Source: Panagrolaimus kolymaensis
Lineage: Eukaryota; Nematoda; Chromadorea; Rhabditida; Panagrolaimidae
Assembly (NCBI GenBank): GCA_028622995.1
Contig: JAJQJQ010000049.1
Span: forward strand, 310,001-374,000
Direction of reading: 5' to 3'
Length of the DNA: 64,000 nucleotides
Shown here: piece by piece, positions 10,700 to 42,405 of the stretch
Position numbering within the stretch: the first letter of the stretch is position 1
Layout: each line of letters opens with the position of its first letter
Translations under genes and position numbers: made by a program
Notes under the pieces: generated by a model
Database searches by the model: none
What the model was told of the DNA's origin: nothing
The model's input: only the letters and a program-made list of their open reading frames with translations

Positions 10700-11517
10700 T
10701 TGGTATAAATTAGTTCCACTTTGAAATGAGTTGGTTTTTTATTTCCTCGCCATAATCGAAATGCAAACAAATGCAACAGCAACCAAGGTCGCCAGGAATT
10801 TGGGCTTTAATGCTTTTAAATAATTTATCGATGTATCCATCGTCATCGAATTCCACTGAAAAATACTTAAATAAAAAAAGCCTTTAAATCAATACTATGA
10901 ATTCTCGGAGTTACAAATTTAGGTGCTCGAATTGAAAATGAGTTTCGCCGCTTTGAATTCGTTTCATAAACTGAAACAATTTCACCAAATGAATCAATTC
11001 CAATCAGGTTTGGGCGGGAATCCCGGATCGTGTTCCGGATTCCCGGATTCCGGACCAATTTTTCGATAATTATTCCCGTCCCGGATTCCCGGATTTTATG
11101 TCCGGAATCCGGAATTAATAAGAGTAAAGAGAGGAGTACATATTATCATTCGAGTAATCATTTTCTTCAAAATTTTCATAAAATATCACCAAAACTTTTT
11201 GGTTATCTGACAAATTATTACTAAAAAACACTTTTTTCTCAAAGAAATTTAACGCTAAAATCCATAATTGGTTAAAACGTCATGTTTTTTTAAAAATGCG
11301 TCTAATACATTTTGTTCTGTTTTTAATTAGAAAGCATTTGGTTAAAAAAAAATGAAAAAATGACAGAAAAATAGAATTTTTAACCATTTTATGAATTCCC
11401 GGATCATTCCCGGATTCCCGTTCCGTCCCGGACTTTTTTACGGGAATCCCGGACTCCCGGATTCCCGTCCCGGAGTTTTCATTACCGCCCAAGCCTGATT
11501 CGAATGTGCCAAACCAT
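10700..11517 (-). pseudogene. Y1: broken HSP70-like gene split by a transposon
   Basis: Minus-strand copy of the Y family (compare 31730-32605). Exon 1 begins at the ATG at 11517 (M-V-W-H), is cut after about six codons by a 493-bp inverted-repeat element (11005-11497), and resumes with G-I-D-S-F-G-E-I-V-S-V-Y-E-T. The donor after the exon is changed relative to Y3 (GTAAGT in Y3, CTAAAT here). Exon 2 starts near 10854 with E-F-D-D-D-G-Y-I-D-K and reads through the C-C-C-I-C-L-H motif before it ends at a stop around 10720. It sits 3' of X1 on the same strand, matching the X then Y order of the other cassettes. Confidence 0.7.
11005..11497. mobile_element. hAT-like foldback MITE inside Y1
   Basis: Terminal inverted repeats are CAGGTTTGGGCGG at the left and CCGCCCAAGCCTG at the right (one mismatch). 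The flanking 8-bp direct repeats are ATTCCAAT (10997-11004) and ATTCGAAT (11498-11505), differing at one base. The ends are rich in a CCCGGATTCCCG repeat, a marked GC rise against the surrounding DNA. There is no transposase. The CAGG ends and 8-bp target duplication fit the hAT superfamily. Confidence 0.75.
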
Positions 11518-11759
11518 ATTTGTTTGTATGTTTAAAGGAAGGAAAAATAAATCAATAAACCATGCAAAAAAAACGAATAAATTTTTTATATTTTGCTGAA
11601 GAAAAAATGCTTAAAATTGATAAAAATGAATGCAGCTTATAAAGCGTTGATTAAGATTGTTAAAAAGAAAGGTTTAACTTGAAATGGGCAATAAAAAAAA
11701 CAAATCATGAAAAAAAGTTTTATTACATATTTGTCGAACAAAAACTTAGTAAACGAATA

Positions 11760-13202
11760 TTAAAATAATTTATGGCAGCAATAATAGTGATAGGCAGTTC
11801 CATTTTCATCTAAAGGACGTCGAATTGCAAGATGATAACCAGTTGATGTTTGATGAACGAATGGCGAAATTTCACATGGTTTCTAAAATCACAAACGTTT
11901 ATTCAAAGTAATATATTTATAAAATCAAACCTCAAAAACTCCAGTGCTCTTATTGAACTTCAAACATCTGCTTCCAATAATGCCAAATAATTCTGATAAA
12001 GGAAGGTCGCACTTCATTTTCATGAGATAAAACATGAGATCATCAAAATTATCATTTGTAACGACATAAGTATCTTTACCACATTTGGTTAACATCATAA
12101 GTAGAATAAGATCATGGCTATAGCTAAAATTTGTTGGATTAGTTGAAAGTAAAAAAAGTTGGTAAACATACTGAGATACGTTGGCTCGAAAACAAATAAG
12201 TCTTTTCAATTGTTTAAGTTCTTGAAACATGTCATCAGGCAAATCAAACTTTGAAATTAAACCAATAGCAGAAAAATTTAGTAAAATTTCATCTATGCAA
12301 GGTTGTAGGTATTTAATATTTGTAAATTTATGAGACCCTTCAACGTAATCTTGAATAATATTGGGAACATCAGCCAAACAAATAGGTGACGAACTTGAGT
12401 TTTCTTCTTTCGATTTCATTAACAATTTTGAATATGATCGAAGCTTTATAATTTCTCTAGATGGTACCTTTACCTCTTTTGCATATCCATATAGAGCTCG
12501 AGAAAATCCAGCAAATCCTTCATCAGTGAATTTAGGTTTTGGATCAAATTTTGATGAACAATTCGTACATTTACGATCATCTCCAACTTCGACTTTTACA
12601 AATGGTGGCAAATGAGATATTCTAAAAAAAGAATGGCGGTAATATAGAAATTTAGCAAAAGAAACAAACTTATTAAACGGTTGAATAAAGTTATCAGCAA
12701 AGGTTTCTGGAAGTTGATAATAACGTTCAGCCATTGTATTCATAAATAATTCAAGAAGAATTAAAGCTTGTGTTGGCGATTCTTCCATCCATTTTAACAA
12801 TTCATTTAACATTTTAGCATCGTCGTAAACAAATAACAATAGAGACTTAAATAATTGTTCTCTGACTTCTTTCAAATCACGTTGTTGTAAAGCAAGAGTA
12901 ATGAGACGAAGAAACATAGATTTATCAGGAATATTCTTTTTAACCCACTTACCACTTAGTTTTTTGCTATCCGACGAAAAATTTGCTGTTCCCAGGAGCA
13001 GTTGACGTGAAGATTGAGATGGAGGCATTTTTGAAACAGGATTAAATGAACATTTAATTGCTGGGAGACGACGAGAAAGCATAATTGGTTGATTGCAAAT
13101 CTTTCCTTTGGTAAGTTCTTCTTTACATATTTGAAACTTCTGTTTTCTTATAGAAACGTTCAACATATGAAACAGGATATTTCTTTCATTTCTAATCATC
13201 AC
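11760..13202 (-). CDS. X1: PRORP/MRPP3-like protein (protein-only RNase P family)
   Basis: Exons 12670-13202, 12172-12621, 11931-12123 and 11760-11882 give 432 residues. Starting instead at the conserved M-L-S-R-R-L (near 13082) gives about 392. The N-terminus S-R-R-L-P-A-I-K is basic, as in a mitochondrial presequence. The order of motifs follows protein-only RNase P, which removes tRNA 5' leaders: a helical region where PRORP has PPR helices, K-C-T-N-C-S, A-D-V-P-N (PRORP D-G-L-N), Y-S-H-D (PRORP D-D), V-V-T-N-D, and a C-terminal G-Y-H-L with Y-Y-C-C for the zinc site. One Asp of the catalytic pair is His. Intron 1 is open in frame here but has conserved splice sites in every copy. Assignment rests on motif order, not a search. 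Confidence 0.72.
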
Positions 13203-14282
13203 GTACTTGAATTACAAATCACGAGTTTGATGACACATTTGATGAATAAGATTAGCTTGAATGAAACATAGAAACATTAGAAGCAAAAAAAATTGCTACT
13301 CGATTTTCATTGTCAAAAGAAAACATAATGCCAAAAAAGACTCTTGCTAGTGTTTTGATTTATTTTTGTTCAAAAATAAATTTTTAATTTTTAGATGTGT
13401 GTTTAGCCATTTTCTTTTATTATTATTTTCCAAAAATAAAATCTATGATAAGAGAAAAGTTTAAAAAATAAAGAAGTGAAATAGCAAAAGGGAAACATTT
13501 AAAAGAGAAACAAATTAGAAGGCTTTTAATTTTTTCACGATAAATTAATTAGGGACACACCTTTTTGATTCTTTTGTTACAAACATATATCGCTTAAAAA
13601 AGAGATTTGACATCTCTGAATAAAATCCATTTTTTTCGAAAAAAATTCTTGAAGGGTAAAAAAAGAAAAAAAGAAGAAAGAATCAATAACAAATTTCAAT
13701 CAATCTAATCTATCATTAATTAACACCTTTGAATTTATTATAATTTGAAACAAAGTAAACTTTAATTTTTAGTTTGTAATTTTATATAAAAAAAATAAAA
13801 TTTTATGTTTTAGCCCAAGAAAAAATCGAAAGGAATTAAATTTTCCTTTTTCTTTTTTGAATTTAATTTTAACAAAGCTTCAAAAAAATCCTTGATTTAA
13901 TAATTTACGTGGTTGTTCGATTTATTTTAAAAAATTATATAAACGCCCATTAGAAATTAGAAAATTTTATAAAAAAAATTCAAAGGCACTCTTAATGTTT
14001 GGACTTTTTAGCATTGCAAAAATATTTTTATTGATGGAAGAAAGAAAGAAATCATTCGATGATGGGTCAGACAGGTCAATAACAATACAGACCGATAAGC
14101 ACCTTTTATTTTTACTTTTTTTTGTCTGTCTGTCTGCCTCCTCTGCCTTCTTCTTCCTTAACACTTGAATAAAAAAAGGAAGAAAAAAAAAGAAAGAGAA
14201 ACATTTATTCAAACAAACTTCAATTGTTATAGTTTTTTGTTCGTTTGGGAAATTTATTTGTTTGCTCCTCAAAAAAAAAATA
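13203..14282. other. Intergenic; homologous to X3 upstream DNA
   Basis: No gene supported. The part near 13480-13620 is the reverse complement, with changes, of the stretch at about 29570-29740, upstream of X3. The inverted X1 duplication therefore extends well beyond its coding part. The rest is AT-rich flank of the kinase gene at 14283. Confidence 0.55.
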
Positions 14283-15928
14283 ATGCCACCGCCACCAAAA
14301 CATTCAACTTCAACAATAATTCAAACTCCATTAATTGAAGAAACGCGTTTGAAAGAAATATTAAAAAATGTTTACGGAATTTCTGAATGTAATATTTTTA
14401 ATTTAACTGGTTATGATGATTTAAATTTTCGAATTGAAAATGTTGTATTTAATTCAAATGCAAATGAAACATTAAAAAATCGAGGAGAAAAAGTTTTTAT
14501 TGTAAAATTTACAAATCCTTTGGAATCAGAAATTCCTGATTTGATTGATGGACAAATTAAATTAACGGAACATTTAAGAAATCATGGAATTCCATGTTTT
14601 GAAACTTTTCCAACTATTGATGGATCATTATGGAAATTTGTTTACATGACTGATTCAGGTACAGAATGTCCGTCCCAATTTTTTTTTTCGATTTCGACTT
14701 GCCATCAGATTTTTGATATTCATACCAAAAAAGGCTAATATCTTTAGGAAAGGTTACGACAATTCTAAAGTTTTTTTGTGTATCATTCATTTTTTTCAAA
14801 GCCAAAAAATTTTGGGCTTGTTTAAGACCATGTTTACCAGGTTTTTATGCTTTAAATTATCGGAAATTCGATGATAAAAATTTTATAAATTTGGAAAATC
14901 AAAACTTTCAACAACAAAAAATTAAAGTTAAAAAACTAAAAGTTTTAAAGTCAAGAAACAAAAAATTTAAAAAACAAAATCCAAATTAAAAAATAAAATT
15001 TTAAATTAAGACTCAAAATTGGTAACTGAACTTTTAACCTTAACATTTTTGGTTGCATTTCTCTTCATTGCTAATTATTTATATAATTTTTTAGTTAAAG
15101 CCCCTATAAGATTAATTCAATTTATGCCTGGAATAATGCTTGAAAACATAGGATATAATAATATTGTATTTGAATTGATTGGTAGCCTCGTAGCTGATTT
15201 CCATAATGCCACATCAACTTTCATTCATCCTGCTTATAAAAAGCAAGGAGGAAGCCATTTTATGTGGGGTGAATGTTGGGAGGCGCTTGAAGAAGAATTT
15301 AATTATCAAGTTCTTGAAGGCCATTTAATAGATGAAAAGCAAATTAAATTATGTCAAAAAGGTTTTGAAGATTTACGAAACGATATTCTTTCAAAAAGAC
15401 ATAAATTTCAATCGGGTTTAATTCATTCTGATATAAATGAAACAAATGTTTTATTATTAAGAAAAAATTCTTCCTCCCAACACGAAAGTTATGAAATTAC
15501 AGCATTATTGGATTTTGGTGATGTCCATCATTCTTTGCTAATTTATGACATCGCTGCATTGGTTTTATATCTTTCCGTGGATACAAAAGAAGATAATTGG
15601 CGAATCATAGCCAGACAAGTTATAAAAGGTTATGAAAAAAAGCGAAAACTTGCTGCCTTCGATCTTGAACATATTTTAGTTTCAATAAGGGCAAAACTTA
15701 TAAGTTCGTTAATTTATGCAATGAGAACGGTACGAATTAATTATCGAAATGAAGAAGATCCAACGTATATTTTAAAAATGCAAGATTATGGTTGGAAAAT
15801 ATTGGAAGTAAGCAACCAACTTATCTTTTTTTTTCTTTTATTGATTTAAAAATAATTTTTCTTTGTTTAATCTAATTTTTTTATAGTTATTCACAAATGA
15901 ATATGATTCAAATAATCGATTAATTTGA
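14283..15928 (+). CDS. Hydroxylysine kinase-like (APH-fold phosphotransferase)
   Basis: Three exons (14283-14658, 15095-15807, 15887-15928; phases 1 then 0) give 376 residues, close to the length of vertebrate hydroxylysine kinase (HYKK/AGPHD1). That enzyme phosphorylates 5-hydroxy-lysine with GTP during collagen lysine breakdown. The aminoglycoside-phosphotransferase fold is shown by an early Y-D-D-L-N-F-R-I strand, the Lys strand F-I-V-K-F, the catalytic loop G-L-I-H-S-D-I-N-E-T-N-V, and the metal-binding A-L-L-D-F-G-D. The catalytic loop has His-Ser-Asp where His-Gly-Asp is common. The first intron, about 436 nt, is the longest of this gene and contains no transposon I can see. Neighbours are unrelated X cassettes. 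It could be a paralogue with another small-molecule substrate. Confidence 0.82.
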
Positions 15929-17181: not shown

Positions 17182-18556
17182 ATGATTTGCTGTCAAGCAT
17201 TGATGCTTTCTCGTCGTCTTCCGTCAATTAAATCTTTGTTTAATCATGTTTCAAATATGCAGCCATCTCAATTTTCACGTCAACTACTCATGGAAGCAGC
17301 AAATTTACCGTTGGAATGCAAAAAAGAAGATGATGGTTTGGTTAAAGCAAATAGTTCACTCCTGCTTAAAAGACGAATCAAATTAAGAAAAGATAAATTT
17401 CTTGGTGAAATTACTCATGCTATTCAAAAACGTGATATGAAAGAAGTAGTAAAACAATTTTTTAGCTCGCCAGCGTTTTTTGTTTACGACGATGCTAAAA
17501 TGTTAAATGCATTGCTACTATGGATTGAAGAATCGCCAACAAGAGCTTTATTTCTTCTTCAATTATTTATGCATACATTGGCTTACAAGTATTATCAACT
17601 TACAATCGATTTTGCTGATAACTTTATTCAACCGTTTAATAAGTTTGTTTCTTTTTGCTAAATTTCTTTTTAACCTTCGTTCTTTTTTTAGAATATCTCA
17701 TTTGCCACCATTTGTAAAAGTCGAAGTTGGAGATGATCGTAAATGTGTTAATTGTTCATCAAAATTTGATCCAAAACCTACACTCTCTGATGAAGAATTG
17801 ACTGAATTTTCACGAGTTCTATATGAATATGCGAAAGAGAAAAATGTACCATCAAAAGAAATTGAAAAGCTCGAATTACGTGCAAACGAGTTATTGGAAT
17901 GGAAAGAAGAAAACTCAAGTTCGTCACCTATTTGTTTGGCTGATGTTCCCAATATTATTCATGATTACGTTGAAGGGTCTCATAAATTTACAAATATTCA
18001 ATGCCTACGACCTTGCGTAGATGAAATGTTACCAATTTTTTCTGCTGTTGGTTTAATTTCAAACGGGTTTCTTTTGCCTGATGTTATGTTTCAAGAACTT
18101 AAAAAATTGGAAAGAGTTATTTATTCTAAATCCAACGGATCTCAGTATGTTTACCAACTTTTTTTGCTTTCAACTAATCAAGCCAATTTTAGCTATAGCC
18201 ATGATCTTATTCTACTTATGATGTTGACCAAATGTGGAAAAGATACTTATGTTGTTACAAATGATTATTTTATTTGTCATATGATTAATCTCATGAAGAT
18301 GAAGTGCGACCTTCATTTATCAAAAATATTTCGCATTATAAGAAGCAGATGTTTGAAGTTCAATAAGAGCGCTGGAGTTTTTGAGGTTTGATTTTACAAA
18401 TATATTACTATGAATAAATGTTTGCGATTTTAGAAACCATGTGAAATATCGCCATTCGTTCATAAAACATCAACTGGTTATCATCTTGCTATTCGACGTC
18501 CTTTTAACGAAAATGAAAAGGCCTATGACTATTATTGTTGTGATAAATTATTTTAA
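17182..18556 (+). CDS. X2: PRORP/MRPP3-like protein
   Basis: Exons 17182-17642, 17692-18144, 18193-18385 and 18434-18556 give 409 residues. Motifs by residue: basic S-R-R-L-P-S-I-K near 10; C172-x-x-C175; A-D238-V-P-N241; Y-S-H308-D309; V-V-T-N-D329; G-Y-H386; Y-Y-C404-C405. In protein-only RNase P the CxxC plus a C-terminal His and Cys hold zinc, and four Asp hold two metals in the NYN nuclease. Here three of the four Asp are kept and one is His. The protein is shorter than human PRORP or plant PRORP1, mainly at the N-terminal PPR part. Unlike its siblings it has an extra Asn-Gly-Phe insertion after L-I-S. It is followed by a 1.03-kb transposon and then broken Y2. Confidence 0.75.
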
Positions 18557-18633: not shown

Positions 18634-19661
18634 CAGCCCTGTAAGCAAACCGACATTTTTGTAGGTTGAAACCGACAGTTGTCGGTTTAGACCGACAAAT
18701 TTTTTTTCTCAGAAATGATGAAATTATGAATGAATAATTAATTTTAAATTTTTCTGCGCTATTAATTTACTATAAAACACAATTTTGAGGTTGTCGGTCT
18801 GGACCGACAGATGTTTTTTTGAACCGACAATAAATATTTTTGAAGGAGTTTCTCTATAAAATGATTAGAAAATACTTTAAAATTAATTTAAAACATTATA
18901 AAAACCATCCATGCATCGATATCAACCATTTATGGTATTTATTGTATATCGTGTGCTATTTTGGTGTGTTTTAGTGACTCAAAAAAATAAAAATCTCCAA
19001 ATTCCAAGTTTTTGGCTTACAATCATTTTTTCTACACTAATTTTGGGTCGTAGAATCCGAATTTGATAACAGATTGCCTACATCTCTTGTTAATTTTGGA
19101 GTTAGGATTTTTTGAAATATGCAAATTTTGACTATCAATAAAACTTTTTTTAAAGCTAATCAAACATAGAAAATGATATCAAATTCGGATTCTACGACCC
19201 AAAATTAGTGTAGAAAAAATGATTATAAGCCAAAAACTTGGAATTTGGAGATTTTTATTTTTTTGAGTCACTAAAACACACCAAAATAGCACACGATATA
19301 CAATAAATACCATAAATGGTTGATATCGATGCATGGATGGTTTTTATAATGTTTTAAATTAATTTTAAAGTATTTTCTAATCATTTTATAGAGAAACTCC
19401 TTCAAAAATATTTATTGTCGGTTCAAAAAAACATCTGTCGGTCCAGACCGACAACTGTCGGTCTGGACCGACAAGGCCCAAAAAGTGTCGGTTTGGACCG
19501 ACAACCTCAAAATTGTGTTTTATAGTAAATTAATAGCGCAGAAAAATTTAAAATTAATTATTCATTCATAATTTCATCATTTCTGAGAAAAAAAATTTGT
19601 CGGTCTAAACCGACAACTGTCGGTTTCAACCTACAAAAATGTCGGTTTGCTTACAGGGCTG
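18634..19661. mobile_element. 1,028-bp hAT-like foldback element
   Basis: Perfect terminal inverted repeats begin CAGCCCTGTAAGCAAACC and end with the complement. The 8-bp target duplication GTTCATTT is exact (18626-18633 and 19662-19669). Nearly the whole element is a single inverted repeat: the left arm runs to about 19130 and returns on the right. Both arms carry repeats of TGTCGGTCTGGACCGACA-type palindromes. No transposase is encoded. The inner arm motif GGGTCGTAGAATCCGAATTT resembles one in the foldback at 56256-57833. Confidence 0.9.
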
Positions 19662-19845: not shown

Positions 19846-20250
19846 ACGGTTTGGCATGTTGGAATAGATTCATTTCGGGAAATTGTTTCAGTTTATGAAA
19901 CCGATTCAAAGCGACAAAACACATTTTCAATTCGAGCACGTAACTTTGAAAGTGCGAGAGCCCCTAGTCGTGATTTAGAGGCTATTTTAACCACATAGTT
20001 TTTCAGTGGAATTCGATGACGATGGATACATAGACAAATTATTTAAAAGCATTAAAGCCCAAATTCCGGGCGACCTTGGATGTTGTTGCATTTGTTTGCA
20101 TTTCGATTATGGAAACGAAATAAAGAACCAACTAATTTCAAAGTGGTACAAACTATGAATTTTCCAAAGTTGAAGTCATTTATGAAAGCATAGTTATTGG
20201 TTGATATTGAAAACTCGGATGAAAGTGTCGAACCGGGTTTTACAATGGGT
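19846..20250 (+). pseudogene. Y2: broken HSP70-like gene
   Basis: Homologous to Y3. Exon 1 begins at 19846 with ACG in place of ATG, and shows a one-base insertion near the G-I-D-S-F segment (TTTCGGGAAATTG). Exon 2 starts at 20007 after a TTTTTCAG acceptor with the E-F-D-D-D-G-Y-I-D-K segment and the C-C-C-I-C-L-H motif, then breaks at the Q-S-G-T-N region. It lies 3' of X2 beyond the foldback element, so the X-then-Y order is kept. Confidence 0.72.
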
Positions 20251-28295: not shown

Positions 28296-29369
28296 ATGTT
28301 ATTTTATGTTATTTATTTTTGTTGTATGATTGCAACCATTTTCGCGGCGGCATGTCCTTCAGGAAGTGAAACCCTTTTAAATGATTGTTATGTTTATCAA
28401 ATAAATTCGATTCCCTTTTCTTCCGCTGAACTTGATTGTAATGTCCTTGGAGGACATTTAGTTTCAATTCATAATGGATTTGTTAATGCTGCACTTATAA
28501 GCAGCGCTGGCGGTTTACCGAAATCCTTCGGTTTTCGGTTTCGGTTAACCGAACCGAAACCGAAGCTTATCGGTTTTCGGTTTTTCGGTTTAAATCGAAA
28601 ACCGAAATCCTCGATTTTCGGTTTTTCGGTTTATAAAATTTTTCGGTTTTCGGTTCGGTTTGAAATTCAAAATCGTTATTTTTTGGGTTAACATATTAGG
28701 TATTGCTTAAATAATGCCTTTTTATGCATTATTAGCATGTTTGCTAACACTTTGGATAACAACTAGATACATTTTTCTATGAAAAGCGAATTCGGTTTTT
28801 TCGGTTCGAATCGGTGCACCGAACCGAAACCGAAGTTTCTCGGTTTTCGGTTTATCGGTTTGAACCGAAAACCGGGATACTTCGGTTTTCGATTTTCGGT
28901 TCGGTTCGGTTCACCGAAAACCGAACCGAAAATGCACCGAAAACCGAACCGAAAAACCGAAAACCGCCAGCGCTGCTTATAAGTAAGAAGGTCAAAAAAA
29001 AAATTGATTTCATGGTGAATCCACCGATGACAGCAAAAAAAGATTTTTTGAAAAATTTCAATTTTAATTAAAGGCGTATTCCAAAAAAAAGAAGAAGCCA
29101 AAATTAATTGAAGGAAATTTTCAGAAGGAGCAGCCAAATATTTTGATGAAACAACAACAACAAATTTTTGGATTGGTTTAAATAATGTTTCGAATCCAGG
29201 AAATTGGATTTGGACCGATCGCTCAACTTTGGATTTCACTGAATTCTCCTCAGATTTTGAACCAAATAATTTTTCATTGAATTGTGGAGCGTTGAATGTT
29301 CAAACAGGATTGTGGGAACCTAATGATTGTGTTGAACCAAAACCATATGTTTGTAGGTTGCCAATTTAG
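28296..29369 (+). pseudogene. C-type lectin (C), disrupted at its splice donor by a transposon
   Basis: Exon 1 (from 28296) encodes a signal peptide (MLFYVIYFCCMIATIF), then C-P-S-G-S and G-G-H-L-V-S-I-H-N. It would normally end at the phase-1 donor in CTTATAA|GTAAGA. A 474-bp inverted-repeat element was inserted exactly there, so the first copy of the 8-bp duplication is followed by the element and the donor remains only in the second copy (28976-28983). Exon 2 (29125-29369) is intact: N-F-W-I-G, E-P-N-N and Y-V-C-R-L-P-I. Kept in the exon, the element adds 482 bp and brings a stop. Splicing might be rescued by another donor, so loss is likely but not proved. Without the element it would be a one-domain secreted lectin of about 149 residues. 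Confidence 0.82.
28502..28975. mobile_element. hAT-like MITE inserted in lectin C
   Basis: Terminal inverted repeats CAGCGCTGGCGGTTT and complement; exact 8-bp target duplication CTTATAAG (28494-28501, 28976-28983). The body is dense with CCGAAAACCGAA-like repeats in both orientations. No protein is encoded. The target duplication overlaps the exon 1 splice donor. Confidence 0.9.
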
Positions 29370-29867
29370 TATTTAAATTTGTTGGAGAAATAATAAATAT
29401 TTACAATATTTAATTTTACATTCAAAAATCGAAGAAAAAAATACGTGCAAAAATTAACTTGGCTAATATTTAAAGCAGAAACACTATTTCCTCTACTTTC
29501 TTATCATTCTTTTTCTTTTAAATTCCTTAAAAAGTTTTTTTCGAAAAATATGTATTTTAGTCAGAGCTATCAAATCTCTTTTTTAAGCGATATATGTATG
29601 TAATCAAAGAATCAAAAAAGTGTTTGTTCCCCATTAATTTATCGTGAAAAAATTAAAAGCCTTCCAATTTGTTTCTCTTTTAAATGTTTCCCTTTTGGCT
29701 GTTTCACTTCTTTATTTTTTATACTTCTCTCTTATCAGAGCTTTTAGTTCTGGAAAATGATTATAAAAGAAAATGGCTAAACAAACATCTGAAATTTAAA
29801 CCTTTTTTTTGAACAAAAAAAATAAACCAAAACTCAAGCTAAAATGAAGGTAGAGTAAATGAGTTTT
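29370..29867. other. Intergenic; homologous to DNA 5' of X1
   Basis: No gene. The part near 29570-29740 matches 13480-13620 in reverse complement. This marks the inverted duplication that gave X1. Confidence 0.55.
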
Positions 29868-30130: not shown

Positions 30131-31479
30131 ATGATTTGGAGTCAACCAATGATGCTTTCTCATCGTCTTCCATCAATTAAATCTTTGTTTAATCATGTTT
30201 CAAAAATGTCTCAATTTTCAAGTCGACTACTCATGGGAACAGCAAATTTTTCGTCGGATAGCAAAAAAGAAAATGATGATTTAGTTAATGCAAATAGTTC
30301 AATCGTGATCCCCAGAAATACAAAATTTCTTGGTCTTATTACTCATGCTTTACAACGACGTCATATGAAAGAAGTACAAGAACTATTTTTTAGGTCTCCT
30401 GTGTTATTTGTTTACGACGATGCTAAAATGTTAAATGAATTGTTAAAATGGTTGGAAGAATCGCCAACAAGAGCTTTATTTCTTCTTCAATTATTTATGC
30501 ATACATTGGCTTACAAGTATTATCAACTTACAATCGATTTTGCTGATAACTTTATTCAACCGTTTAATAAGTTTGTTTCTTTTTCTAAATTTCTATGTTA
30601 CCTTTCATTTGTTTTTTAGAATATCTCATTTGCCACCATTTCAAAAAGTCGAAGTTGGAGGTGATCTTAAATGTTCTAATTGTTCATCAAATTTTGATCC
30701 AAAACCAACGCTCTCTGATATAAGAATGGCTGAACTTTCACGAATTCTTTATGATTATGCGAAAGAGGAAAAGGTACCATCAATAGAAATTGAAACGCTC
30801 CAATCTTGTGCAATCAGCTTATTGAAATTGAAAAAAGAAAATTCAAGTTCGTCAGCTATTTGTTTGGTTGATGTTCCCAATATTATTCATGGTTACGTTG
30901 AAGGGTCTAATCGATTTACAAATATTCAATGCCTACGACCTTGCGTAGATGAAATGTTATCAAAATTTTCTGCTGTTGGTTTAATTTCAAAGTTTGATTT
31001 GCCTGATGACATGACTCGAGAACTTGAAGATTTGAAGAAAGTTGTTTATTATAAAACAAAAATTACATCGTAAGCATTTTTTGTTTTTGTTTTCAACTAA
31101 TCAAACATATTTTAGCTATAGCCATGATCTTATTCTACTTATGATGTTAACCAAATGTGGTAAAGATACTTATGTCGTTACAAATGATAATTTTGATGAT
31201 CATTTGTTTAATCTGATGAAGATGAAGCACTCACTTGCTTTATCATTAATATTTGGCATTATTGGAAGCAGATGTTTGAAGTTCAATAAGAGCACTGGAG
31301 TTTTTGAGGTTTGATTTTATAAATATATTACTTTGAATAAACGTTTGTGATTTTAGAAACCATGTGAAATCTCGCCTTTCGTTCATAAAACATCAACTGG
31401 TTATCATCTTGCAATTCGACGTCCTTTAGATAAAAATGGAACTGCCTATCACTATTATTGCTGCCATAAATTATTTTAA
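30131..31479 (+). CDS. X3: PRORP/MRPP3-like protein
   Basis: Exons 30131-30570, 30620-31069, 31116-31308 and 31357-31479 give 401 residues. The start M-I-W-S-Q-P-M-M is followed by the basic S-H-R-L-P-S-I-K segment. It keeps K-C-S-N-C-S, V-D-V-P-N, Y-S-H-D, V-V-T-N-D-N-F-D-D-H, and the terminal G-Y-H-L-A-I-R-R with Y-Y-C-C. The D-D-H after T-N-D is closest of the copies to the R-D-H of true PRORPs. Exons 3 and 4 have exactly the same lengths (193 and 123 nt) as in the other four copies. Of the family it sits nearest an apparently intact Y gene, only 250 bp upstream of it. A mitochondrial location is inferred from the basic N-terminus only. Confidence 0.75.
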
Positions 31480-31729: not shown

Positions 31730-32605
31730 ACGGTTTGGCACGTTGGAATAGATTCATTTGGTGAAATTGTTTCAGTTTATGAAACGGATTCAAAGCGACA
31801 AAGTGCAATTTCAATTCGAGCACGTAAGTTTATAACTGCGAAGTTTCTAGTTTAAATTTTAAACCTTCAATAACTACAGCTTTTTCAGTGGAATTCGATG
31901 ACGATGGATACATAGACAAATTATTTAAAAGCATTAAAGCCCAAATTCCGGGCGACCTTGGTTGCTGTTGCATTTGTTTGCATTTCGATTATGGCGAAGA
32001 AATAAAAAATCAACTAATTCAAAGTGGAACAAACTATGGATTTTCCAAAGTTGAAATCATCGATGAACGAATAGTTATTGGTTGGTATGGTTTGGCCCAA
32101 TCAGGATATAAACCAAAAGAAAATGACAATATTTGGATTATTAATAACACAAAATTTTATAAATGGACAAAAATTGAAGGAAAATTAAAACTTCTGATTG
32201 AAGTGGAATGCGTCGGAGTTTTGACTGAAACAAAATTAAATAAAATGAAAAAAGATTATGGAAATCCTGCCATTATCGTTTATTTCCATCCGGATAAATT
32301 GTTTCGAATGATTTTGAAAAAACAATTTCCACAATGTTTTTTATTTTTTGTTAATTATTCGATTTTTTTGGCTGATCGACATTATTATGAATGGACTTTA
32401 AAAGAAGCTTTAATTATGGCTGGAGGCAACAGCGATCTGGAAATAGCGAAACAAATAGTTAACAATTTTTTATTTTAAAGGATTTTATAAAAAATAAATT
32501 GTTTTTTAGCTTTCTGAAACTGACAAATCACTTTTAAACCAACCAAGCGAGAAGATCGCTCCTGACTTTGATGTTATAACTTATAACAAAAAAACAAACC
32601 ACTAA
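31730..32605 (+). CDS. Y3: short degenerate HSP70-like protein, no ATG
   Basis: Exons 31730-31823, 31889-32457 and 32510-32605 give 252 residues without a stop. It aligns by order with an HSP70 nucleotide-binding domain: V-G-I-D-S-F-G-E-I-V-S-V-Y (HSP70 G-I-D-L-G-T-T), a segment L-H-F-D-Y-G-E-E-I-K-N-Q-L-I (HSP70 Y-F-N-D-A-Q-R-Q-A), K-V-E-I-I-D-E-R (R-I-I-N-E-P), and L-I-M-A-G-G-N-S (V-G-G-S-T-R). The phosphate-binding G-T-T and G-G-G-T-F motifs are gone, as is the peptide-binding half. So it cannot be an ordinary chaperone. The first codon is ACG where related copies have ATG, and an in-frame TAA lies just upstream. Either a missed exon, a non-AUG start or loss of function explains this. It follows X3 on the same strand. 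Confidence 0.62.
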
Positions 32606-33653: not shown

Positions 33654-34441
33654 TCATTTTTGTAGTTCTTTTTTAAAATTCTTGACATCTTTAATTTCAA
33701 GGAGTTTAGCTATGGCAGAATTATTTATTTCGACACGTTTTGATTTTTGTGCTTCAGTTAACCAAAAATAATAAATATCCATGGTACCAAGAGCGAAATC
33801 TTTTTCAAAATTTGTAAGACATGCGTTAAAAAATAAGTAATAAATGGTTTCAGAAATAAAAGGAGTTGTGTCATCCGAAGAAACAAGGTTCAAGTTTTCA
33901 ATAATCTTTGGAGTTTTTGCAAGCATTGACTTTAAAATTAATTTATTCACCATAATCCGCTGAGATTTTTGGTGTTCAGACAAATATCGAGAACCTTTGT
34001 GGCAATATCTAAAAATTGATTTTTGCCAACCAAAAGTGTTTTTAAAAATTTTAAAAATAAATTAATTGGAACATACCGAGAATAAATTTTTTTATTCTCT
34101 TTGGTAATCCATTTTCTATCCTTAGCATATTTGAGGGCTGCTAATCCTAAAGGATTTTTAATACTCTTTTGAATGTTTTTCAAACTATCATAAACGGCGT
34201 TCATTTGTAATTGAATAAATTGGGTGTGGCATTGTTTTCCAAGAATAATCTTTGCGCCATTTAGCTTGTTTTTATAAACATGAATTTTTCGAATTGGCGC
34301 ATGTCCACAGGCGCATTTTTCCGCTTTTAATGATTCATAAGTTTCTGTTAAGCTCCATTCTTTAATAGATTCATCAAAATATTTATCAACACTTTTTTCA
34401 ATAATCAAATTTTGGAATGTTTCAAAATTGTAACCGGACAT
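33654..34441 (-). CDS. Protein with CxCG...GxxC zinc-like motif, family unknown
   Basis: Minus strand. Exon 1, 33995-34441 (149 codons), reads M-S-G-Y-N-F-E through C-A-C-G-H and, 24 residues on, G-K-Q-C-H. A spacing of C-x-C-G then G-x-x-C looks like a zinc-knuckle. The frame ends at a stop unless a 35-nt stretch (33960-33994, GTTCTC to CTCAG) is removed; doing so joins to a second open frame (33654-33959) and gives 250 residues. Thirty-five nt is shorter than any other intron in this window (43 nt is next), so a frameshift is the alternative. I recognise no family; the motif type occurs in assorted DNA-virus, plasmid and eukaryotic proteins, so origin by transfer is possible but unproved. 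It lies between two X cassettes. Confidence 0.5.
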
Positions 34442-35121
34442 GATTAAAATAATTTGAGAAAAAGTGAAATAAAAATAAACAAAACGCAGTAATTGATTGA
34501 AATGATTTTTTTCTAAAAACTAATAATTTAAGGATCAGAATCGAGTATACTACATAAATAAATTTCCAAAAACTTTAACGAATAAGAAAAATGCTAAGAA
34601 AATGGAAGAAAAATTAAAACTACTTTTTTTTCTTGCTGCAAATCAAAGTAAGCAAAAAATGGAATGAAAAAAACTAAAGAAGAAAATGAAAAGCAAAAGA
34701 AAAATGTTTTAAAAAAGTTTTTTTATGCTGTCTTGTTTTTTTTTATAAACAAAGCTTTTTTACAACAGCGAAATGCAAGAAAAAAAATTCTTCAAAGCTC
34801 CAGTGAATATCAAGAAAAATCTTTTGGACGATAAAAAAAATAAACTTCGAAGTTTATAAACTTCCATAAAACAAAATAAGGCTGCTCAAATTTGTGCTAC
34901 GTTGAAGCCATAAAAAATGTTTCACTTCTTATTTCTGATACTTGTACATAGCTACTATTGGAGCAATAATAAAAAAATTTCAAGTTATTTCATTCCATCT
35001 CTTTTTCTCTTTTTTTTGTGCTTTATTTTTAGAATTTTCCAAATTGGATTAATAATGCTCTATAAATTTCAAAATTTGCGTAGTTTATACTTTTCACATA
35101 CATCCTTAATTTATTTTAATA
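34442..35121. other. Intergenic spacer
   Basis: AT-rich spacer without a supported gene. Confidence 0.5.
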
Positions 35122-35163: not shown

Positions 35164-35700
35164 GATATCACACAGAAGATAAACATAGAGCTACTTCAGA
35201 ATTAAGATCGCATATTTGATAATCATTTGGCTAAAAAAAATTTCATTAATTCTTAAAAAAATTTATACGATCCACCTCTTTGGGTTCTCACGTATTTTTT
35301 GACCCTTGCACGTATCTTTTAATATCTTTGGATCCTTTAGCTTGGGTTCTTCTTTATCTTTTGATCTTTCAACATTTTTTAAATTCTTCATTTGGTTCCT
35401 TACTTCGAATCCTTTCTTTGAGCCTTTTAGCATCTGGGAGTTCGATTACATGCTTGAAATGTTTGCAATTCGATATGAATAACTTTTGTTGCATTGAAAA
35501 TTAAGCTTCCGTGGCCGAGCGAGCAAAAAAATAAATAAGATTAGATTAATTAATAAACCTTTTTATTTGCTCTCCAAATAAAAAAGCTAATTTGATTTTC
35601 GAAATAAAAACTTGTAAAAAAATTTAACCTCAAATTTCAATTTTAATTAAAGGTGTATTCCAAAAAAAGGAAGCTAAAATCAATTAAAGAAAATTTTGAG

Positions 35701-35945
35701 AAGGAGCAGCCAAATATTTTGATGAAACAACAACGACAAATTTTTGGATTGGTTTAGATAATGTTACGAATCCAGGAAATTGGATTTGGACCAACCGCTC
35801 AACTTTGGATTTCACTGAATTTTCCTCAAATTTAGAACCAAATAATTTTTCATTGAATTGTGGAGCATTAAATGTTCAAACAGGATTGTGGGAATCTAAT
35901 GATTGGTCTAAATAAAAACCATATGTTTGTATGTTGCCAATTTAG
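35701..35945 (+). pseudogene. C-type lectin pseudo-exon in unit 4
   Basis: Homologous to 29125-29369. The acceptor TTTTCAG is now TTTTGAG. It reads through F-W-I-G-L and the E-P-N-N loop, but a conserved Cys has become Trp (N-D-W) and a stop follows it at S-K-stop. Exon 1 of the lectin is absent. It is the 5' marker of the duplicated cassette. Confidence 0.82.
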
Positions 35946-36360
35946 TATTTAAATTTGTTGGAGAAATAATAAATAATTACAAAATTTTATTTTACTTACA
36001 AAAATCGAAGAAAAAATACGTACAAAAATATTTATTTGGCTAAAATTTAAAGCTGAAACACACTTTCCTGTATTTTCTTATCATTCCTTTTATTTAAGTC
36101 TTTCGAGAATTTTTTCGGAAAAATACGAAACGCAAAATGGCTTAATAAACATCTAAAAATTAAACCTTTTTTTTGAACAAAAAATAAACCAAAACTCAAG
36201 CTAAAAAGAAGCAACAGTAAATGAGTTTTTTTGGCATAATGTTTGCTTTTGATAAATAATTTGCAACTTTGTTTTTTTGCTTCAAACGTTTCTATGTTTC
36301 ATTCAAGCTAATCTTATTCATCAAATGTGTCATCAAACTCGTGATTTGTAATTCAAGTAA

Positions 36361-37810
36361 GTGATGATTACAAATAAAAGAAATATCCTGTTTCATATGT
36401 TCAATGTTTCTATAAGAAAGCAGAAGTTTCAAAAATGTAAAGAAGAAATTACCAAAGGAATGATTTGCTGTCAACCATTTATGCTTTCTCGTCGTCTCCC
36501 AGCAATTAAATGTTCATTTAATCCTGTTTCAAAAATGCCTCCATCTCAATCTTCACGTCAACTGCTCCTGGGAACAGCAAATTTACCGTTGGAATGTAAA
36601 AAAGAAAATGGTGATAAATCAAATAGTTCAATCGTGATTACAAGAAAAGCCAAATTTCTTGATGACATTACTCTTGCTTTACAACAACGTGATTTGAATG
36701 AAGTACGAAAACTCTTTTCTAGCTCGCCATGGTTATTTGTTTACGACGATGCTAAAATGTTAAATGCATTGCTACTATGGATTGAAGAATCGCCGACAAA
36801 AGCTTTAATACTTCTTGAATTCTTCATGGATACATTGGCTCACAATTATTATCAACTTCCAGAAAGCTTTGCTGATAACTTTATTCAAAAGTTTAATAAG
36901 TTTGTTTCTTTTGCTAAATTTCTTTGCAACCTTCGTTCTTTTTTTAGAATATCTCATTTGCCGTCATTTGAAAAAGTCGAAGTTGGAAATGATCGTAAAT
37001 GTGTTAATTGTTCATCAAAATTTGATCCAAAGCCAACATTCACTGAAGAAGGGTTAGCTGCATTTTCACGAGCTCTAAATGATTATGCTAAAGAAGAAAA
37101 GGTACCATCAAAAGAAATTGAAAAGCTCCAATCTTGTGCAACCATCTTATTGAAATGGAAAAAAGAAAACTCAAGTTCGTCACCTATTTGTTTGGCTGAT
37201 GTTCCCAATATTATTCATAATAACATTGAAGGCTCCAATCATTTAGCAGATCTTCGATACCTGCCACTTTTCTTAGATGAAATGTTACCAAATTTTTCTG
37301 CTGTTGGTTTAATTTCAAAGTTTGATTTGCCTGATGACACCATTCAAGAACTTGAAGATATGAAAAGAGTTTTTTATTATAAAGCATATAAGACTGAGTA
37401 AGTATTTTTTTGTTTTTGTTTTTAACTAACCAAACATTTTTTAGCTATCGCCATAATCTTATTCTACTTTTGATGTTTACTGAATGTGGTAAAGATACTT
37501 ATATTGTTACAAATGATAAATATCTTGATCATATGCATTATCTCAAGAAGATGAAGTGTCCACTTCCTTTAACACAAATATTTGGCATTCTTCGAAGCAG
37601 ATGTTTGAGGTTCAATAAGAGTACTGGAGTTTTAGAGGTTTGATATTTTACTTTTAATAAATGTATGTAATTTCTATATAATTTTAGAATCCATGTGAAA
37701 TTTCGCCATTCGTTCATCAAACATCAACTGGTTATCATTTTGCAATTCGACGTCCTTTAGATGAAAATGGAACTGCCTATAACTATTATTGCTGTGATAA
37801 ATTATTTTAA
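36361..37810 (+). CDS. X4: PRORP/MRPP3-like protein lacking a second catalytic Asp
   Basis: Exons 36361-36899, 36948-37397, 37445-37637 and 37688-37810 give 434 residues from the first ATG, or 401 from the M-I-C-C-Q start shared with X2 and X5 (36460). The N-terminal extension M-M-I-T-N-K-R is shared with X1. K-C-V-N-C, A-D-V-P-N, V-T-N-D and the C-terminal G-Y-H-F with Y-Y-C-C are kept. However the catalytic pair reads Y-R-H-N: both positions (usually Asp-Asp) are replaced, so this copy is predicted to be a poor or inactive nuclease. The reading frame is open throughout and splice sites are intact, so it is not an obvious pseudogene. Confidence 0.75.
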
Positions 37811-38066
37811 TGTTCTTTTCTTTTACTTTGTTTTTGTTTGACAAATATTTAATAAAACTTTTTTTCAAAAATTGTCTTTTTTTATTGTCCATTTCAAGCT
37901 AAACCTTTGTTTTAAAGATCTTTATCAACGCTTTATAAGCTGCATTCATTTTTATCGAAATCATTATTAAGCTTTGTTTTTTCAGCAGAATAGGAAAAAA
38001 CTTGTTGCTGCTTCATTTTTGCATCGTTTATTGATTTATTTTTCTTTCCTTTAAATACAAACAAAT

Positions 38067-38160
38067 ATGGTTTGGCATGTTGGAATAGAAGCATTTGGTG
38101 AAATTGTTTCAGTTTATGAAACCGAATCAAAGCGACAAAATGCATTTTAAATTCGAGCAC
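38067..38160 (+). pseudogene. Y4: relic of Y exon 1
   Basis: ATG and M-V-W-H-V-G-I-E-A-F-G-E-I-V-S-V-Y-E-T are present, but a TAA interrupts at the F-S-I-R-A position, and no exon 2 exists downstream. Confidence 0.75.
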
Positions 38161-38269
38161 ATAAGTATGTAACAGCGAGAGTCTTTAGTATGGATTTAGA
38201 GCCTATTACAAAAGAAATACATAACTTCGTCATTAGAAAAATTTTCAAAAATATTATTTTCGTTTTAAC

Positions 38270-38890
38270 CATCGCCAGTCTTAACAGGGACACTCAATGA
38301 AATTTGCGTAGGTTCTTTTTTTGTGAAGCCGCAAATTCTTTAAGTAGTTCTTGTGTATCATAAACTTCGCCATTGGAGAAAGTTTATTTTTGGGTGAAAG
38401 TAACAAAATAAATTTCTTTTCTTCGGTCTCGAGGAAAATTCTAACCTTAAAATCAAAAATTTATTTAATTTATTATTTTTTGTTTTATTTAAAAAATTCA
38501 TTAAAATAATTACTAACATTGCTCATTCATAGCATCGTCACCTTTTTCTACAGCTTCTTCTTTGGCATGATAAATTTTGGAACCATTTGAAGCCACAAAT
38601 TTCTAAATAATTTTATATTTATGAAAGAAAATTGTATAAAAATTATATGAAAACATATTTTATAAAAATATCCAGAAAAAATCCGTTTCTTTTTTTGTGT
38701 AGGATTTAAATCCTCTAAAAACTCTAAATCGCGGATGTTTTTGTTATTAAAAGCTCGAGCTATTTCGAGCTTGTCTTCAAATGATAAATCTAAACGGTTA
38801 TTAAACTTAGATGCAACAGGATTTTATATCACGTTAAAATGGAAGTCTCATGACACAATCATCTTCAGGCCATCTTGATAGAAATGCTTC
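38270..38890 (-). pseudogene. Decayed minus-strand gene, unit 4
   Basis: Three exon-like blocks on the minus strand repeat those at 41640-42305. One near 38515-38605 reads K-F-V-A-S-N-G-S-K-I-Y-H-A-K-E-E-A-V. One near 38700-38835 reads K-F-N-N-R-L-D-L-S-F-E-D-K-L-E-I-A-R. One at 38278-38380 reads N-G-E-V-Y-D-T-Q-E-L-L-K-E-F, with a one-base change against the unit 5 copy. The blocks do not join into a clean frame in either unit. Family not recognised. Confidence 0.5.
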
Positions 38891-39156
38891 ATTTTTTAAT
38901 TTTACCATTAAAAAATCTTTTTAAAAAATAAATAAAAAATAATGTTAAAATATTCAAAAAAAGGAAGAAGAAAAAATAGATGTGTAAAAAATTTACCGCC
39001 TCTTTTGGTTCAAATTTTTTTTGCTCTCCAAACAAAAAAGCTAATTTGATTTTCAAAATAAAAACTTGTAAAAAAAATTTAACCTCAAATTTCAATTGTA
39101 ATTAAAGGCGTATTCCAAAAAAAAAGAAGCGAAAATTAATCAAAGAAAATTTTCAG

Positions 39157-39404
39157 AAGGAGCAGCAAAATATTTTGATGAAACAACAATAACGACAAAT
39201 TTTTGAATTGGTTTAAATAATGTTTCGAATCCAGGAAATTGGATTTGGACCGATCGCTCAACTTTGGATTTCACTGAATTCTCCTCAGATTTTGAACCAA
39301 ATAATTTTTCATGGAAATGTGGAGCATTAAATGTTCAAACAGGATTGTGGGAATCTAATGATTGGTCTAAATAAAAACCATATGTTTGTATGTTGCCAAT
39401 TTAG
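39157..39404 (+). pseudogene. C-type lectin pseudo-exon in unit 5
   Basis: Homologous to 29125-29369. The F-W-I-G tryptophan codon is now TGA, and the Cys-to-Trp change and the stop of the unit 4 copy are also present, so these arose before the two units separated. Confidence 0.82.
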
Positions 39405-39854
39405 TATTTAAATTTGTTGGAGAAATAAAAAATAATTACATAATTTTATTTTACATTCAAAAATCGAAGAAAAAATACGCGCAAATTTTTATTTGGCTAA
39501 AAATTAAAGCCGAAAAACCATTTCTCGTAATTTTCTTATCTTTCCTTTTTTAACAAATTTTTTAAGAAGTTTTTTTTAATAAATATGAAAAACAAAATGG
39601 CTAAACAAACATCTAAAAATTAAACTTTTTGAACAAAAAAATAAACCAAAACTCAAGCTAAAAAGAAGCAACAGTAAATGAGTTTTTTTGGCATAATGTT
39701 TGCTTTTGATAAATAATTTGCAGCTTTTTTTGCTTCAAACGTTTCTAAGTTTGAAGCTAATCTTATTCGTCAATTGTGTCATCAAATTATTGATTTAACA
39801 TTTTATAAGAAAGCAGAAATTTGAAAAGTGTAAAGAAGAAAACTTACAAAAGAA

Positions 39855-41211
39855 ATGATTTGCTGTCAAGCAATGGTGCTTTCTCGTCGTCTTCCGTCAA
39901 TTAAATCTTTGTTTAATCATGTTTCAAAAATGCAGCCATCTCAATTTTCACGTCAACTACTCCTGGGAACAGCAAATTTATCGTTGGAATGCACAAAAGA
40001 AAATGATGATTTGGTTAAACCAAATAGTTCAATCGTGATTACAAAAAAAGCCGAATTTCTTGGTCCACTTACTCATGCTATTCAACAACGTGATTTGAAG
40101 GAAGCGCAAAAACGATTTTTTAGATCTCCTTTGTTATGTTTTTACGACGATGCTAAAATGTTAAATGAATTGTTAAAATGGATGGAAGAATCGCCAACAA
40201 AAGCTTTAAAACTTCTTGAAATATTTATGCATACATTGGCTCACAATCATTATCAACTTTATATCTATTTTTTTGAAAATTTTATTCAAAAGTTTAATAA
40301 GTTTGTTTCTTTTGCTAAATTTCTTTGCAACCTTCGTTCTTTTTTTAGAATATCTCATTTGCCGTCATTTGAAAAAGTCGAAGTTGGAAATGATCGTAAA
40401 TGTGTTAATTGTTCATCATATTTTGTTCCAAAACCTACTTTCACTGATGAAGGATTTGCTGCATTTTCTCGAGTTCTTTATGAATATGCAAAAGAGAAAA
40501 AGGTACCATCAAAAGAATTTGAAACGCTCCAGTCTTGTGCAACCATCTTATTGAAATGGAAAAAAGAAAACTCAAGTTCGTCACCTATTTGTTTGGCTGA
40601 TGTTAACAATATTATTCATGGTGAAGTTGAAGGCACCAATCGTTTAACAGATCTTCCATACCTGCCACTTTTCTTAGATGAAATGTTACCAAATTTTTCT
40701 GCTGTTGGTTTAATTTCAAAGTTTGATTTGCCTGATGACACCATTAAAGAACTTGAAGGTTTGAAGAGAGTTGTTTATTATAAAACATACAATGAAAAGT
40801 AAGTATTTTTTTGGTTTTGTTTTTAATTAACCAAACATATTTTAGCTATAGCCATAATCTTATTCTATTTTTGATGTTTACCGAATGTGGTAAAGACACT
40901 TATATTGTTACAAATGATCGTTTTCGTGATGATATGTTTAATCTCATAAAGATGAAGTGTCCACTTTCTTTAACACCAATATATGGCATTCTTAGAAGCA
41001 GATGTTTGAAGTTCAGTAAGAGCACTGGAGTTTTAGAGGTTTGATTTTTTACTTTTAATACACGTATATAATTTCTATATAATTTTAGAAACCATGTGAA
41101 ATCTCGCCATTCGTTCACAAAACATCAACTGGTTATCATCTTGCTATTCGACGTTCGCTTGACAAAAATGGAACTGCCTATGACTATTATTGCTGCAATA
41201 AATTATTTTAA
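39855..41211 (+). CDS. X5: PRORP/MRPP3-like protein lacking a second catalytic Asp
   Basis: Exons 39855-40300, 40349-40798, 40846-41038 and 41089-41211 give 403 residues. It keeps the basic S-R-R-L-P-S-I-K start, K-C-V-N-C-S, A-D-V-N-N, I-V-T-N-D, and G-Y-H-L with Y-Y-C-C. The catalytic pair is Y-S-H-N, with Asn in the position that is Asp in X1-X3, as in X4. Loss of the second Asp is thus shared by the two tandem units and predates their split. The frame is open and all splice sites are standard. It is followed by a Y exon 1 relic and the minus-strand remnant. Confidence 0.75.
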
Positions 41212-41454
41212 TGTTCGTTTACGTTATTTTTGTTCGATAAATATTTAATAAAACTTTTTTTCAAAAATTGTCTTTTTTTATTGCCCATTTCAAGCTAAAT
41301 CTTTGTTTTAAAGATCTTTATCAACTCTTTATAAGCTGCATTCATTTTTATCGAAATCAATATTAATCTTTTTTCTCAGCAGAATAGGAAAAAACTTGTT
41401 GCTTTATTTTTGCATGGTTTATTGATTTATTTTTCCTTCCTTTAAATTACAAAT

Positions 41455-41548
41455 ATGGTTTGGCATATTGGAATAGATTAATTTGGTGAAATTGTTTCAG
41501 TTTATGAAACGGATTCAAAGCGACAAAATGCGTTTTAAATTCGAGCAC
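41455..41548 (+). pseudogene. Y5: relic of Y exon 1
   Basis: Begins ATG, M-V-W-H-I-G-I-D, then TAA where S-F-G starts in Y3, and a second stop near F-S-I-R-A. The GTAAGT donor remains. No exon 2 follows. Confidence 0.75.
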
Positions 41549-41639
41549 GTAAGTTTGTAACAGCAAAAGTCCCTAGTATGGATTTAGAGCCTATTACAAA
41601 AGAAATACATAACTTCGTCGTTAGAAAAATTTTCAAAAA

Positions 41640-42305
41640 TATTATTTTCATTTTAACCATCGCCAGTCTTAACAGGGACACTCAATGAAATTTGCGTAGG
41701 CTCTTTTTTTGAAGCCGCAAATTCTTTAAGTAGTTCTTGTGTATCATAAACTTCGCCATTGGAGAAAGTTTATTTTTGGGTGGAAGTGACAAAATAAAAT
41801 TCTTCTCTTCGATCTCGAGGAAAATTTTAACTTCAAAATCAAAAATTTATTTAATTTATTATTTTTTGTTTTATTTAAAAAATTCATTAAAATAATTACT
41901 AACATTGCTCATTCATAGCATCGTCACCTTTTTCTACAGCTTCTTCTTTGGCATGATAAATTTTGGAACCATTTGAAGTCCCAAATTTCTAAATAATTTT
42001 ATATTTATGAAATATAATTGCATAAAAATTATATGAAAACATATTTTATAAAAATATTTAAAAGAGCCTTTTCTTTTCTTTTTTTGCGTAGGGTTTAAAT
42101 CCTCCAAATATGCTAAAAACATTTCGCGGATATTTTTGTTGTTAAAAGCTCGAGCTATTTCGAGCTTGTCTTCAAATGATAAATCTAAACGGTTATTAAA
42201 CTTAGATGCAACAGGATTTGTTTGATATCACGTTAAAATGGAAGTCTCATGAGTCATGACACAATCATCTTCAGGCCATCTTGATATGAAATGCTTCATT
42301 TTTTT
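41640..42305 (-). pseudogene. Decayed minus-strand gene, unit 5
   Basis: Minus-strand frame from about 42299 reads M-K-H-F-I-S-R-W-P-E-D-D-C-V, a TGA after S-I-L-T, and then Y-Q-T-N-P-V-A-S-K-F-N-N-R-L in the same frame. Further blocks repeat those of unit 4, including a final S-L-S-V-P-V-K-T-G-D-G. Unrecognised; better preserved here than in unit 4. Confidence 0.5.
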
Positions 42306-42405
42306 ATTTTACCATTGAAAAATCTTTTTTAAAAATAAAAACAAAATTAAAGTTAAAATATTCAAAAAAAAAATGCTGATTAAATAATTTACTGCCTCTT
42401 TTGGT

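Follow-up and report, generated by a model that had tools for sequence, protein, structure and literature searches.

The nuclease subunit of animal mitochondrial RNase P, PRORP or MRPP3 (PF16953), has been described as presumably single-copy among animals (PMC4558845). Four conserved aspartates in the NYN pocket are said to define the PRORP subtype, which further possesses a split zinc-binding domain of three cysteines and one histidine (PMC10941002). Among human MRPP3 variants, D479N and D499N are reported as inactive, D478N as retaining very low and D409N as retaining partial activity (PMC4477676). The human delta-206 crystal fragment comprises the last PPR motifs, the zinc domain and the NYN domain (PMC4477676), and crystallised N-terminally truncated human fragments are described as inactive even with partners (PMC10941002). 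A PRORP family with more than one member occurs in Arabidopsis thaliana, where PRORP1, PRORP2 and PRORP3 are presented as working enzymes split by compartment (PMC10941002). No animal PRORP gene family was found in the open-licence literature, as judged by the titles and abstract openings listed, and nothing was found there on a Panagrolaimus ribonuclease P or on a mitochondrial RNase P pseudoenzyme. The stretch described here, referred to as the window, is 64,000 nucleotides (nt) of the nematode Panagrolaimus kolymaensis (contig JAJQJQ010000049.1, positions 310,001 to 374,000) and contains five clustered genes, X1 to X5, each followed by a copy or relic of a second gene, Y. On balance, X1 to X5 probably represent a tandem family of PRORP-derived proteins that would be catalytically impaired, maintained by selection and acting via their retained fold.

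By sequence homology, the X family is descended from PRORP. A profile of the five copies, run against 5.8 billion proteins with scoring limited to the 8000 candidates with the most words in common, matched two of these candidates, P0001 (JGI, 534 amino acids (aa), E 1.8e-108, 40% identity, 100% of the first query covered) and P0002 (UniRef, Panagrolaimus superbus MRPP3, named mitochondrial ribonuclease P protein 3, E 2.3e-98, 42% identity, 87% coverage). Both strong matches are PF16953 proteins in the database, and X is for this reason regarded as PRORP-derived. A repeat search with all seven sequences (X1 to X5, P0001, P0002) returned the same two only, among 6728 candidates. The matches of P0001 (E 2.1e-6, residues 294-519) and P0002 (E 9.4e-7, residues 403-501) to the Pfam PRORP family are themselves below Pfam's cut-off. 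Direct Pfam and PDB searches with single X sequences or the five-copy profile gave nothing convincing, Pfam PRORP being matched by one of the five copies at E 0.053, and PDB sequence searches with X, P0001, P0002 and the seven-row alignment found no PRORP structure.

An earlier sequence-only reading of this region had proposed a locally expanded, PRORP-related gene family and had made a match to PRORP profiles its test. The direct profile comparison is nearly empty, so by that measure the claim would seem refuted; the relation is nevertheless established through the panagrolaimid PRORPs at 40-42% identity, and the tandem copies are confirmed. The PRORP-like motif order noticed at that time is now backed by homology and alignment, while the loss of catalytic aspartate, the N-terminal truncation and the mosaic nature of the copies were absent from that reading.

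Gene models (Table 1) are based on a DNA alignment of the copies, with introns set at common GT...AG sites and 5' ends predicted. Exons 3 and 4 measure 193 and 123 nt in all five genes, in agreement with the sequence-only reading. Exon 2 has 450 nt in four genes and 453 nt in X2, exon 1 comprises 413, 461, 440, 440 and 446 nt in X1 to X5, with differences in multiples of 3, and introns are 46-50 nt long. The spliced frame is intact with a single terminal stop in every gene (392-409 aa), and AATAAA is located 36-41 nt past each stop codon. In X1, an alternative reading that retains introns 1 and 2 is likewise open and yields an open reading frame (ORF) of 428 aa.

The X proteins are homologous to animal PRORP over their length and have in common with it the zinc ligands (CxxC, H, C), the first and last catalytic aspartates and the ending YYCC.KLF, but they are shorter than the canonical 514-534 aa. 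According to alignment and tblastn, X begins at about residue 133-152 of P0001, i.e. some 130-150 N-terminal residues are missing, and residues 1-132 of P0001 have no tblastn match within the window at E up to 10. Only the last part of the N-terminal PPR domain is retained, with about 138-155 residues ahead of the zinc domain by our own count on the alignment. Among residues 1 to 35-42 of X, 4-5 are Lys or Arg and 0-1 acidic, a composition that a presequence could have, and the stretch aligns inside the canonical PPR region. The zinc-binding residues C300, C303, H511, C529 and C530 (P0001 numbering) are retained in all seven aligned rows, with C529 or C530 as the candidate last ligand.

Changes are concentrated at the catalytic site, for which human residues were mapped by a gap-free block and spacing, with human numbers taken from PMC4477676 and the human and plant sequences themselves unaligned. 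P0001 possesses all four aspartates; in P0002 the first falls into a 20-residue gap and the other three are present. D366 of P0001 (equivalent to D409) and D454 (D499) are retained in all X copies. D433 (D478) is replaced by His in all five, and D434 (D479) is Asp in X1 to X3 and Asn in X4 and X5, so that the canonical YDDD of the NYN part reads YSHD in X1 to X3, YRHN in X4 and YSHN in X5. The distance from 433/434 to 454 in P0001 is 21/20 residues, equal to that from human 478/479 to 499, and therefore the altered X residues correspond to human D478 and D479; the distance from 366 to 433 is 67 against 69 from human 409 to 478. In total, three of the four catalytic aspartates are found in X1 to X3 and two in X4 and X5. 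We file X as a PRORP-derived variant that lacks a defining PRORP feature, not as a functional PRORP, and judged by these residues and the shortened front the X genes are probably no longer ordinary RNase P. The delta-206 fragment resembles X in its last PPR motifs, zinc domain and NYN domain, but is engineered and has intact catalytic aspartates, whereas X is natural and altered there. Similarly, the compartment-split enzymes of A. thaliana differ from the X copies, which are clustered, shortened and catalytically altered.

The X frames are maintained. In a neutral simulation on a codon tree (drift along terminal branches only, 2000 runs), 4.95-7.16 stops were expected per X copy on average, single copies stayed free of stops in 0.1-0.7% of the runs, and all five did so in none. 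Pairwise gaps are multiples of 3 in 15 of 15 cases in exon 1; the corresponding counts are 0 of 20 for introns, 5 of 28 for the 5' flank and 0 of 17 for the 3' flank. For exon 2 the count is 4 of 8, and the other four all stem from one 2-nt gap that X3 has close to intron 2; its spliced exon still has 450 nt. Omega across the X tree is 0.67 (twice the log-likelihood difference, 2dlnL, 10.1 versus 1; kappa on a grid), an estimate that is approximate, like all those from a single tree, because the copies exchange sequence. By region, the N-terminus has an omega of 0.83 (2dlnL 0.4), the PPR remnant one of 0.59 (3.4), the central part one of 0.57 (4.4) and the exon-4 region one of 0.17 (17.8). Pairwise ratios among the copies amount to 0.47-0.89 by maximum likelihood and 0.45-1.04 by YN00 (9 of 10 pairs). 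The picture is one of proteins that are maintained but quick-changing, most protected at the zinc-binding end and least in the nuclease part.

The X genes lie in duplicated blocks, with long matches of 1.2-2.7 kb between blocks at 81-89% identity. X4 and X5 form direct tandem blocks of 3.4 kb, each running from a C-type-lectin-like relic through X and a Y relic to the remains of an antisense gene; X2 and X3 are situated in different block versions, and X1 is inverted. The paired X and Y unit of the sequence-only reading is thus right in its order and too small in its extent, the block including a lectin-like relic upstream of X3 to X5 and the antisense relic in X4 and X5. Part of the lectin relic of X3 (29118-29355) is 72% identical to 44664-44901, inside an ORF that by eye resembles a C-type lectin; the ORF next to it (43149-43736), the one scanned, matches Lectin_C at 3.1e-18. 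The antisense gene remains (38,300-38,900 and 41,700-42,250, minus strand) are found at the ends of the X4 and X5 blocks as short coding-looking stretches with stops, a 96-nt piece of them being 98% identical between the two blocks.

Copies are mosaic in addition. The closest partner changes along the gene: over the 5' flank and early exon 1, X1 is most like X4 (92-93%), over exon 2 and intron 2 it is most like X2 (mostly 88-92%), and from exon 3 onward it is most like X3 (92-96%). A PHI-like permutation test on 164 sites gave 0.341 versus 0.499 +/- 0.011, with none of 5000 permutations as low. X copies exchange sequence, by gene conversion or unequal exchange.

A Y copy or relic is present downstream of each of the five X genes, as previously noticed. 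For X1, X3, X4 and X5, the distance from the end of the X stop codon to the start of Y is 243-257 nt; a palindromic insertion of about 1.03 kb intervenes between X2 and Y2. This palindrome is near-perfect, with ends rich in TGTCGG/CCGACA, and its part 19,029-19,216 matches 56,946-57,133 at 78%. Repeats of GGGAATCC/CGGGA-like words occur at approximately 11,004-11,497 (about 0.5 kb, interrupting Y1) and also at 26,019-26,109 and 26,283-26,372. Y is broken in at least four of the five copies, possibly in all. The sequence-only reading had listed the Y set correctly as present, but the sole long frame is that of Y3, which begins with ACG and not ATG, and Y4 and Y5 consist of exon 1 only, with stops; moreover, its region began at 10700, slightly short of the end of Y1 at about 10,561. 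Within the 128 nt of exon 2 that Y1 to Y3 have in common (10,853-10,726; 20,009-20,136; 31,891-32,018), 12 of the 13 differences of Y1 and Y2 from Y3 fall on third positions, so Y would have been a constrained protein gene until recently, and it seems to be a conserved gene that has died of late.

The HSP70-like character formerly ascribed to Y finds no support in any sequence test. Searches of Y against Pfam, NCBIfam and PDB sequences gave no HSP70 match, nor did pairwise comparison with E. coli DnaK; no Pfam family at all was found for Y at E up to 10, nor any NCBIfam match. As a control, ORF 60338-61171 (minus strand) of the same window matches PF00012 at 2.7e-50. Profile-profile comparison of Y with DnaK plus the presumably HYOU1-like piece of the window gave no support for HSP70. 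A protein search found no match at E up to 10 among 191 candidates, with a reach of 0.55-1.75 times the query length that leaves full-length HSP70s outside. Against a profile of ten HSP70-family members, five of them from plasmid records with a DnaK match (among 30 of 285 listed), 23 of 200 shuffled Y3 sequences scored at least as high as Y3, in a comparison run without a positive control; the best local hmmsearch match to this profile is the motif region near the Y end (GG), at a negative score. Structure models were of too low quality to be usable, the predicted fold of Y having a pLDDT of 45.3 from a single sequence, and structure comparisons gave no usable match. In view of the motif region, a very distant relation of Y to HSP70 is conceivable. 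Hsp70 domains are reported to be over-represented in cryptobiotic Panagrolaimus genomes (PMC6889759), which leaves room for such a relation but is no evidence of it.

Several points weigh against X1 to X5 being catalytically impaired proteins kept for their fold. Omega of the NYN part is 0.95 (2dlnL 0.04), indistinguishable from 1, with 1.15 in the first and 0.77 in the second half, and pairwise NG86 ratios among the copies are 0.67-1.26; both results fit a slide toward loss as well. Recombination violates the single-tree assumption of both the omega estimates and the neutral simulation. The 5' ends are predicted, so that more of the PPR domain could be encoded by an upstream exon that was missed, and, as His can bind metal, X1 to X3 might still cut RNA. 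The last point leads to active nucleases with altered chemistry or substrates, in which His would stand for a metal-binding Asp and the shorter PPR domain would release the NYN domain from the recognition of pre-tRNA. X1 to X3 still have Asp at three of the four catalytic positions, their frames are maintained, and human D478N is reported to retain very low activity (PMC4477676), but the equally intact X4 and X5 carry Asn at the D479 position, a change that inactivates human MRPP3, NYN is by omega the region under least constraint, and truncated human fragments are described as inactive (PMC10941002), which makes this explanation unlikely. That the X genes are recent functionless duplicates on their way to pseudogenes is quite unlikely: the overall and NYN omega values, the NG86 ratios and the already broken Y and lectin relics in the same blocks agree with it, whereas five of five frames are intact where about 5-7 stops each are expected, all 15 exon-1 gaps are multiples of 3, and the exon-4 region is constrained.

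It is very improbable that the X genes are the animal's own mitochondrial RNase P, its task spread over several shortened copies and the canonical gene gone. No canonical PRORP was seen within the window, the part of the genome searched, but the window is uninformative on the rest of the genome, and related panagrolaimids carry full-length PRORP with a DDD site (P0001, P0002). Hardly credible, finally, is a functional pair of X with an HSP70-like Y, the view of the sequence-only reading. The X-Y order is kept in all five blocks, Y once coded for a constrained protein, and there is a motif-level resemblance to HSP70 seen by eye only, GIDSFGEIVSVYE near the Y start and MAGGNSDLE near its end, in a genus whose cryptobiotic members are reported as rich in Hsp70 domains (PMC6889759). 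Opposed to this are the broken frames of Y1, Y2, Y4 and Y5, the missing ATG of Y3, the absence of any HSP70 match in the databases and pairwise comparison named above, and the result with shuffled Y3. Since X is intact in all five units and Y broken in four or more of them, the pairing is probably mere co-duplication, and Y looks like an ordinary passenger gene decaying inside a duplicated block.

Table 1. Coordinates of the X genes, the Y copies and relics, and the associated elements in the window (positions count from the first letter of the window).
Feature	Position	Strand	Exons	Product	Remarks
X1, PRORP-derived gene	11760..13082	-	13082-12670, 12621-12172, 12123-11931, 11882-11760	392 aa	
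X2	17182..18556	+	17182-17642, 17692-18144, 18193-18385, 18434-18556	409 aa	
X3	30131..31479	+	30131-30570, 30620-31069, 31116-31308, 31357-31479	401 aa	
X4	36460..37810	+	36460-36899, 36948-37397, 37445-37637, 37688-37810	401 aa	His and Asn at D478/D479-matching sites
X5	39855..41211	+	39855-40300, 40349-40798, 40846-41038, 41089-41211	403 aa	His and Asn at D478/D479-matching sites
Y1 pseudogene	10561..11517	-			ATG at 11517; exon 1 split by insertion ~11,004-11,497; exon 2 from 10853 frameshifted
Y2 pseudogene	19846..20207	+			ACG as start codon; exon 2 from 20009, frameshifted
Y3	31730..32478	+			first codon ACG; exon 2 31889-32478 open for 195 codons; sole Y with long frame
Y4 relic	38067..38207	+			exon 1 only, one internal stop
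Y5 relic	41455..41595	+			exon 1 only, two internal stops
C-type-lectin-like relic upstream of X3	29053..29550	+			89% to 35632-36125 and 39087-39587
C-type-lectin-like relic upstream of X4	35632..36125	+			
C-type-lectin-like relic upstream of X5	39087..39587	+			
Palindromic (foldback) element between X2 and Y2	18634..19661				arms 282 nt at 99%, 176 nt at 98%

The surroundings comprise a true HSP70-family gene on the minus strand (58,561-61,709; PF00012, 2.7e-50 for one ORF), which by eye we take to be HYOU1-like. According to Pfam, further neighbours are Arm-repeat (presumably importin-alpha-like), DnaJC11-like, APH-type kinase-like, CUB-like (just under cut-off) and C-type lectin genes. 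On the minus strand at 33,654-34,519, an ORF of 135 aa overlaps one of 190 aa; the longer one contains CACGHAPIR and has no Pfam match at E 0.01. No tRNA genes were found in the window by a scan that used the bacterial code.

Under the favoured explanation, X1 to X5 would be tandemly amplified PRORP (MRPP3) paralogs, descended from a founder in which one catalytic aspartate and the front of the PPR domain had been lost, with the loss of a second aspartate shared by X4 and X5. The zinc-binding residues are kept, as are two of the four catalytic aspartates, or three in X1 to X3, and the frames would be held by selection. X1 to X3 would then be at most weakly active and X4 and X5 dead as nucleases, a loss of RNase P activity suggested by the residue changes. 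The proteins may act through the retained fold by binding RNA or a partner, perhaps modulating the mitochondrial RNase P complex, and the basic, acid-poor N-terminus would be consistent with a mitochondrial location. Copies would arise through duplication of blocks (lectin relic, X, Y) and swap sequence by gene conversion or unequal exchange, with Y as a passenger that formerly coded for a conserved protein and is broken today in most copies if not all. Tentatively, and with considerable doubt, X1 to X5 may be 'pseudo-PRORPs', a quick-changing, selection-kept, catalytically altered and PPR-truncated family whose copies multiply next to C-type lectin genes through the duplication of blocks and are reshuffled by gene conversion. 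Such a family would have a job other than making tRNA 5' ends, e.g. to act as a decoy for mitochondrial RNase P, to regulate it, or to take part in genetic conflict of the mito-nuclear or another kind.

If true, clustered, intact and catalytically altered copies would show that PRORP can leave its tRNA task and be reused. The X copies would provide natural variants at residues tested by mutagenesis in the human enzyme (D478, D479), and they sharpen the question which role the zinc-binding and NYN scaffold of PRORP may have without catalysis.

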